Below, piece after piece: positions 2,440-4,694 of a stretch of 6,192 nucleotides of DNA. The stretch covers positions 1-6,192 of the forward strand of contig JACPHL010000022.1 in assembly GCA_016188625.1 (NCBI GenBank). Direction: 5' to 3'. The translations under genes were made by a program, and so were the position numbers. The notes under the pieces were generated by a model. That model was not told where the DNA came from. It was given only the letters and a program-made list of their open reading frames with translations, and searched no databases. Each line of letters opens with the position of its first letter. The stretch's first letter is position 1. Origin of the DNA: Candidatus Rokuibacteriota bacterium. Its GTDB lineage: Bacteria > Methylomirabilota > Methylomirabilia > Rokubacteriales > JACPHL01.

Positions 2440-2571
2440 ATGACCGAACGCGTTCGGACCCTCGTGGTCAGGCTGAAGGCCGGCCTGCAGGATCTCTATG
2501 GGCCTCGCCTGCGGGGCGACCAAAGCCGCAGCGAGCTTTTCGACGTCGTAGCTAGACTAGGTCAACCATAA
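2440..2571 (+). pseudogene. Truncated MNT-type nucleotidyltransferase remnant
   Basis: This 43-codon frame has a near-perfect ribosome binding site, AGGAGGG (2427-2433), 6 bases before ATG 2440, and a good promoter at 2324-2353. Residues 1-26, ending LKAGLQDLYGPRLRG, match the usual N-terminus of small MNT/MNT-HEPN nucleotidyltransferases, where the next strand should be a GSYARGE-type active-site motif. Here the sequence switches at about base 2518 to DQSRSELFDVV and stops at TAA (2569-2571). The catalytic GS motif and aspartates are absent, and no other frame continues the domain. It cannot be an active transferase. It is most likely a gene cut by recombination or insertion whose expression signals survive; a real micropeptide is the less likely alternative. 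The family assignment comes from memory of homologues. Confidence 0.5.
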
Positions 2572-2588
2572 CTGGAACCTTTGACCTA
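2558..2588. repeat. Perfect 8-bp inverted repeat TAGGTCAA-N15-TTGACCTA
   Basis: TAGGTCAA (2558-2565) and TTGACCTA (2581-2588) are exact reverse complements around 15 bases. The arms are AT-leaning with no adjoining T-run, so this looks more like a protein-binding operator or element end than a terminator. It lies across the stop of the truncated reading frame and at the 3' end of the minus-strand small RNA candidate. Confidence 0.5.
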
Positions 2589-2672
2589 AACAAAAACACC
2601 CGCCCGGGGTCGCAGGCCTCTCGGTGCTTTCGCACCAAGATGTTTCCCACTTCCAGCGGGCGGGGTGGAAGT
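2588..2672 (-). ncRNA. Candidate small RNA, minus strand, about 85 nt
   Basis: Predicted from three linked signals. A promoter (2679-2707) places the start at A2672. The transcript opens at once with a 7-bp hairpin, ACUUCCA (2672-2666) with UGGAAGU (2655-2649), around the C-rich loop CCCCGCCCGC. A linker follows, then a 9-bp hairpin (arms 2640-2632 and 2627-2619) capped by a GAAA (GNRA) tetraloop. The end is a terminator hairpin followed by U5GU3. The three wobble pairs in these helices are G-U on this strand but A-C mismatches on the + strand, which favours minus-strand transcription. The RNA points away from modA. I do not recognise it as a known family. Loop C-runs could pair with G-rich ribosome binding sites, as described for other C-rich-loop small RNAs; that role is speculation. 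Confidence 0.5.
2592..2617 (-). terminator. Intrinsic terminator of the minus-strand small RNA
   Basis: On the minus strand GCCUGC (2617-2612) pairs with GCGGGU (2603-2598) around an 8-base loop, followed by G and then UUUUU (2596-2592), G and UUU. Two of the six pairs are G-U on this strand. The stem is modest and its 3' arm can instead pair with the CCCGCCC in the first hairpin loop. Confidence 0.5.
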
Positions 2673-2678
2673 ACTCAA

Positions 2679-2707
2679 AGATTAGTCCACGGGCGGATAT
2701 GTGTCAA
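2679..2707 (-). promoter_or_regulatory. Sigma-70-type promoter of the minus-strand small RNA
   Basis: Read on the minus strand: TTGACA (2707-2702, perfect consensus), a 17-base spacer, and TAATCT (2684-2679), which keeps the key T1, A2 and T6. The seventh base after the -10 box is A2672, exactly the first base of the hairpin at the 5' end of the small RNA candidate. Confidence 0.6.
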
Positions 2708-4388: not shown

Positions 4389-4694
4389 TCAGCCAGCCCG
4401 GCGTGTGGCGAGGCGCTCCTTCAGGTACTGCTGAAGGGTGATCCCCTTGCCCGCCCGGATCTCCTTCGCCGCGACCTTGAGGCTCTTCTGGAACTCGGGG
4501 TCGAGCTCCTCCAGCATGTCGTCAAAGTCGGTGGCCCCCATCAGGACCGCGGTCGGCTTGCCGCTCTTGGTGATGATGAACCGCGCCTTCTCGAGGAGAA
4601 GAGCACCCCCCGGAAGAGTGCGGAGGCGAGCCACGGAGCTCCACCCCCGGGGCGAGACTCGGTCCCCAGGACGGGCGAAAAGGCGGCAGGGCAC
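4389..4694 (-). pseudogene. Orphan, N-terminally disrupted Phd/YefM-type antitoxin
   Basis: The frame gives up to 101 residues from GTG 4694. Residues 31-101 look like the core and tail of a Phd/YefM antitoxin: LLEKARFIITKSGKPTAVLM (33-52), DFDDMLEEL (56-64) and a helical, basic toxin-binding tail with KEIRAGKGITLQQYLKER (77-94). Such proteins normally start with about 25 residues forming the DNA-binding fold; here that part is replaced by MPCRLFARPGDRV-like sequence with no resemblance, and no other frame supplies it. A GTG at 4634 with TGGAG 4 bases upstream could start an 81-residue form that is still too short. No toxin gene follows; the frame ends about 65 bases from the oppositely oriented modB end. 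Family call is moderate; loss of function is inferred. Confidence 0.6.

Follow-up and report, generated by a model that had tools for sequence, protein, structure and literature searches.

Results

The window analysed here, a stretch of 6,192 nt from a Candidatus Rokuibacteriota bacterium, is an entire contig and belongs to the sole genome of its family among those compared. The genes flanking the studied unit encode a sigma-54 response regulator, an MGS-domain protein, a SBP_bac_11 solute-binding protein and a BPD_transp_1 permease, the latter two read as ModA and ModB. All of them run on the plus strand, and there is therefore no minus-strand gene downstream of the unit. The first-pass annotation had described a minus-strand unit of 85 nt with a TTGACA-N17-TAATCT promoter, a start at A2672 (six bases beyond the -10 hexamer) and a final U5GU3 run, and each of these elements was found in the sequence as described (Table 1). 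The promoter had escaped the automatic scan because TAATCT agrees with TATAAT at only three of six positions. The choice of strand was also sound: the minus strand folded at -44.1 kcal/mol (z -3.8, dinucleotide shuffles, 2/200) versus -34.6 (z -2.1) for the plus strand, and only on the minus strand does a U run follow the stem. The RNA finishes at 2588 with CGGGCGGGT-G-TTTTTGTTT. The proposed terminator was upheld in part. A terminator recurs in relatives, but comparison shows that its conserved stem is the long-range pairing of the two outer-stem arms and not the local GCCTGC/GCGGGT hairpin, which folds only weakly (-9.9). The 5' hairpin (S1) and this outer stem are incompatible as simple nested helices, leaving only a rod or an H-type pseudoknot. 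The inner hairpin occupies the position of the shorter inner hairpins of relatives. The inverted repeat beyond the RNA end is a possible deletion scar.

Table 1. Features of the RNA unit and its surroundings in the window
Feature	Position	Strand	Basis
-35 hexamer TTGACA	2702..2707	-	Sequence; 5-6/6 match at promoter distance in 16/16 units checked
-10 hexamer TAATCT, 17-nt spacer	2679..2684	-	Sequence; same hexamer in two further units, L082 and L117
85-nt RNA, class B member of the NYN-leader RNA family	2588..2672	-	Sequence; L036 homologue, E 1e-9 (rough); model R3, 42 bits (window being one of the 18 sequences behind R3)
5' hairpin S1, 7 bp, 10-nt C-rich loop, ACTTCCA-CCCCGCCCGC-TGGAAGT	2649..2672	-	Class B only
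Outer/terminator stem, 5' arm CCCGCCCG	2657..2664	-	Covariation in 28 sequences
Inner hairpin TCTTGGTGC-GAAA-GCACCGAGA, 9 bp including one G-U	2619..2640	-	Sequence, folding
Outer/terminator stem, 3' arm CGGGCGGG	2599..2606	-	Covariation in 28 sequences
U run TTTTTGTTT (U5GU3), intrinsic terminator	2588..2596	-	Sequence
Inverted repeat TAGGTCAA/TTGACCTA, between RNA end and NYN remnant	2558..2588		Sequence
NYN nuclease gene remnant SYDVEKLAAALV, 12 residues	2518..2553	-	11/12 residues identical to L036-type NYN

Several further features were recorded in the flanks. A plus-strand ORF of 43 aa (2440-2571), preceded by a TTGACC-N18-TAGAAT promoter at 2324-2353, resembles by eye the N-terminus of an MNT nucleotidyltransferase-type antitoxin; Pfam gave no support for a nucleotidyltransferase in this ORF. 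An apparent MNT-type nucleotidyltransferase gene, likewise recognised by eye, lies approximately 150-400 nt past the orphan RNA at two other loci (L115 and L116). On the minus strand at 4389-4694, a Phd/YefM-like antitoxin ORF scored marginally below the Pfam cut-off, and no toxin was recognised adjoining it. The first-pass annotation had also described the unit as divergent from modAB. Across genomes of the order, modA showed approximately 60-74% identity, and an RNA comparable to the window unit was absent from the vicinity of all 30 modA loci of relatives examined. A tie to modAB was not supported; the RNA appears to have nothing evident to do with these genes.

The first-pass annotation could not place the unit in a known RNA family, and Rfam likewise returned no match to it at a permissive threshold; no Rfam 15 match at or near the gathering score fell on the RNA in the window or at representative loci. 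6S RNA was rejected: RF00013 did not match the window unit, and the 6S gene of this genome is on a different contig. When 60 genomes of the order were searched by BLASTN with the window intergenic region, nothing real emerged (one match, L002, lies within an apparent coding region and was put down to chance), BLASTN of the unit against plasmids and phages gave no matches, and neither did an exact hairpin pattern scan of the genome and viral collections. Two covariance models built from the single window sequence both matched a locus in another Methylomirabilota family (G063:C222:26461-26524, hereafter L036), with E-values of 1e-9 and 3e-9, which are rough for home-made models of this kind. The 5' hairpin is retained in this copy, where one A-U pair has become G-C, as are the 3' stem and the U run, and a UUCG-capped stem stands in place of the 9-bp GAAA hairpin of the window. 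A gapped pattern scan recovered G063 once more, along with a contig of Planctomycetota belonging to a sister groundwater metagenome bin. Among the other model matches, L037 (G012, 1426-1605) is a probable leuA attenuator by its leader peptide (MNTLTLEIQRTTSADFSLATLSLN, containing leucine) and downstream gene; it has a terminator, and its match to the single-sequence model was ascribed to chance. The low-scoring matches L038-L041 were likewise taken as chance on alignment. Further loci were found in the phylum, Methylobacterium bullatum and viral contigs using the NYN protein described below as a query. A total of 27 relatives were recovered from unevenly sampled collections, in Methylomirabilota, Planctomycetota, Methylobacterium and viral contigs.

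The window RNA is one member of a family of short promoter-to-terminator RNAs absent from Rfam. The common form, class A, is about 48-52 nt long and consists of ACUU[GC][CU]U, an outer stem (e.g., CCCCGCCCG/CGGGCGGGG) enclosing an inner hairpin, mostly GCC-NNNN-GGC, and then UUAUUUUU. Class B comprises the window, L036 and the second L043 copy; its members differ in their longer interior and in having the 5' hairpin. L043 carries an A copy followed by a B copy, an arrangement of two unlike units seen once. Between the window and L036, S1 shows one compensatory change (A-U to G-C) and one A-U to G-U change; only 4/7 of its pairs are kept in the second L043 copy. The compensatory changes that the first-pass annotation had proposed to look for in relatives were found in the outer stem, and relatives also share the promoter, start site and terminator. 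In 28 distinct sequences, aligned by sequence without structure fitting and themselves the source of the structure, 97.2% of outer-stem cells were paired, whole-structure pairing reached 96.1% in the true register versus 36-57% for structures slid by 1-3 columns, and the covariation score was matched by none of 500 shuffles. Two-sided changes occurred at four pairs; at one of these, C-G was replaced by G-C or G-U in 8 sequences. The L125 unit, with a truncated NYN gene, added another two-sided change, to U-A. At all 16 units checked, a -35-like hexamer with 5-6 matches lay at promoter distance and the RNA started near ACUU, while the -10 hexamers were loose. Since promoter spacing and the U run are conserved, the unit is probably transcribed.

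In the G063 and Planctomycetota copies, the RNA lies directly upstream of a gene for an NYN-domain protein. The same was true of all NYN genes recovered from this subfamily with a complete N-terminus, including 7/7 genes with an intact 5' end in the phylum, as well as those in Methylobacterium and in viral contigs (L087-L091, L098, L104, L105). At all intact class A and class B loci an intrinsic terminator separates the RNA from the nuclease gene, and at each one examined the terminator hairpin immediately precedes the NYN start. The label of self-contained sRNA consequently fits the window copy, but elsewhere the RNA is the terminated leader of a nuclease gene. Pfam identified only NYN (PF01936) in the downstream protein, and residues D16, N19, E115, K116, D119 and D146 were invariant in 10 sequences. 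Three subfamily members matched the PADLOC HEC-09 model PDLC04163 (E 8.7e-17, 3.5e-8 and 1.2e-11), a candidate anti-phage/defence protein family. HEC denotes Hma-embedded candidate, and some HECs have antiviral activity shown by testing (PMC12988326). No published RNA partner for HEC-09 and no NYN-RNA pairing was found in the open-licence literature. The G063 locus looks like a mobile element, since genes for a tyrosine integrase and a DnaB/DUF3987 protein lie on the same contig. In several viral contigs (L088-L091, L104) the cassette stands beside phage head genes and, where annotated, between the terminase large subunit and portal genes. It is apparently a moron in the head-gene cluster there, and we take this layout to be gene-transfer-agent-like. 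More distant leaders were also noted. On a Carboxydocella plasmid (L086, 1283-1495), a LabA/DUF88 NYN gene is preceded by a promoter with perfect hexamers (TTGACA-N18-TATAAT), an approximately 150-nt leader with several hairpins and a terminator; although the sequence is unrelated, this may be the same architecture in Bacillota. On 3.5-kb E. coli plasmids, which carry RNAI, a HEC-09/NYN gene (E 5e-49) follows a leader and a perfect 16-bp terminator-like hairpin (L092, 1240-1417). There were no direct repeats in the L086, L092 and L096 leaders.

In the window, the NYN gene has lost its start and nearly everything else, and the RNA there is an orphan because only the 12-residue remnant is left (tblastn against L036, E 5e-5 for a searched region of 263 nt; 29/36 nt). 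The remnant resembles the L036/L043 NYN type, which accompanies class B RNAs, consistent with the RNA and NYN travelling together. Model R3, built from 18 family RNAs, found the RNA in 17/95 genomes of the phylum. Among 19 units of the phylum (the R3 matches plus G022 minus two weak matches, approximately eleven of them at places outside the model), the NYN gene was intact at 6, cut by a contig end at 1, broken at 7 and absent at 5; it was thus broken or missing at 12/19. Some of the breaks delete the EEKGID segment with its invariant acidic residues. One orphan RNA copy is shared by three species of a single genus and lies after the same gene in each. For the two more distant of these species it was identical at 48/51 positions, versus 121/159 in the adjacent spacer (p 0.004), at one locus with essentially one informative comparison and with uneven spacer conservation.

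Discussion

The unit exists, is conserved and covarying, travels with an NYN gene and has been orphaned in the window. The window RNA is very probably the 5' half of a two-part mobile RNA-NYN cassette, in which a strong promoter is followed by a short structured RNA with an intrinsic terminator and by an NYN-domain (PIN-like) nuclease of the HEC-09 family. How the cassette works is a more tentative matter. By analogy, the RNA may both restrain a toxic RNase and attenuate its expression through the terminator, a combined mechanism to which we give not quite an even chance. Most transcripts would stop at the terminator and yield abundant RNA, while rare read-through would supply little NYN nuclease. 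The RNA would bind and restrain this nuclease in the manner of a type III antitoxin RNA, and the RNA:nuclease ratio would be set by the terminator. A disturbance, such as a phage, would free the nuclease, and an orphan RNA would be a left-over or a retained antidote. A restraining RNA is favoured because the layout is that of type III toxin-antitoxin loci and because the protein matches HEC-09. Against restraint, the RNAs are without type III-like repeats, class A amounts to roughly a terminator hairpin with a 7-8-nt tail, and the excess of broken NYN genes may reflect decay of mobile cargo.

The main rival is pure attenuation, a possible if rather doubtful account in which a promoter and a regulated terminator would keep the nuclease gene near-silent until anti-termination, an altered RNA polymerase or a phage factor intervened, the RNA being inert in trans. 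It covers class A, which is essentially all terminator hairpin and always immediately precedes the NYN start, nearly as well as restraint does, and the shortness of the RNA poses less of a difficulty for it. Distant HEC-09/NYN genes on Carboxydocella, E. coli/Klebsiella and Granulicella plasmids point the same way, as single or clonal examples with a terminator-like hairpin of unrelated sequence shortly upstream. However, pure attenuation leaves unexplained the conserved orphan RNAs without NYN, as well as the covarying S1 hairpin that class B has in addition and that is in competition with the terminator stem. These two points give restraint a slight preference.

Whatever the role of the RNA elsewhere, the window unit itself could be the non-functional scar of a decayed cassette. 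The reduction of its NYN gene to 12 residues and another fragment-like ORF in the flank agree with such a fate, but we consider it unlikely, because the unit has kept its promoter, S1, outer stem, inner hairpin and U run intact, and because orphan copies occur commonly, with apparent conservation in one orthologous set. A MITE-like or DNA-hairpin element, with the hairpin as the recognition end and NYN as an internal gene, would account for internal NYN deletions that retain the left end and for the associated integrases and a tRNA site; it is highly improbable, as the right end after NYN is not conserved among the loci compared and the conserved promoter spacing and U run indicate transcription. 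A host regulator of modAB/molybdate genes, or a riboswitch, is the least credible reading, since it has only the divergent position from modA in its favour, is contradicted by the comparative data on modA loci, and faces a minus strand with no downstream gene and no Rfam aptamer match.

Restraint with attenuation, if correct, can be extended to a broader and still tentative proposal, for which we see a reasonable chance well short of even: HEC-09-type NYN proteins would be the protein half of a repeat-less class of RNA-nuclease toxin-antitoxin or abortive-infection systems, whose short RNA both attenuates and inhibits and whose orphans persist as antidotes. RNA-controlled toxins would then reach a different nuclease fold, and repeats would be dispensable. 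As it stands, an uncharacterised candidate defence nuclease gains a conserved, covariation-supported RNA partner absent from Rfam, and what looks like a lone sRNA can be all that survives of a mobile cassette after its decay.

Several known systems resemble the unit in part. Class B has what we take to be a fluoride-riboswitch-like topology, in that the loop of its 5' hairpin could pair with sequence past the second hairpin; however, there is no Rfam match, no downstream gene is served in the window and class A lacks this topology. C4 antisense RNA of phages P1/P7 is presumably similar as a short hairpin RNA heading a mobile-element operon, and was set aside since neither C4 nor any other Rfam family matched the RNA at representative loci. 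Amino-acid attenuators, such as the leuA leader at L037, share the terminated leader before a gene, whereas the family RNAs are without a leader peptide and have their own promoter, starting approximately 7 nt before the hairpin. HEC-09 in PADLOC (PDLC04163) corresponds to the downstream protein (E 8.7e-17 to 3.5e-8), of which the window retains only a remnant, but the model covers the protein only, without an RNA.

A close likeness is to type III toxin-antitoxin systems (ToxIN, CptIN, TenpIN), which share with the cassette a promoter, a structured RNA, an intrinsic terminator and an RNase gene, together with links to mobile elements and defence. By definition, a type III antitoxin RNA has tandem nucleotide repeats ahead of its terminator (PMC5086642), whereas the family RNAs consist of a single unit, except for the two unlike units in L043, with 7-8 nt before the stem in class A. 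In type III systems the toxin cuts its RNA and is neutralised by it; this toxin belongs to the ToxN family, whereas the cassette protein is an NYN/PIN-type nuclease. We did not file the cassette as type III, because tandem repeats and ToxN were both looked for and neither was found. No partner for the class A 5' tail was seen, and class A is probably without a pseudoknot. For CptI, an H-type pseudoknot whose first loop is a single nucleotide has been reported (PMC5086642), and class B could form a CptI-like H-type pseudoknot, also with a 1-nt first loop, in which S1 crosses the outer stem. By analogy, the cassette may work like a type III toxin-antitoxin system.
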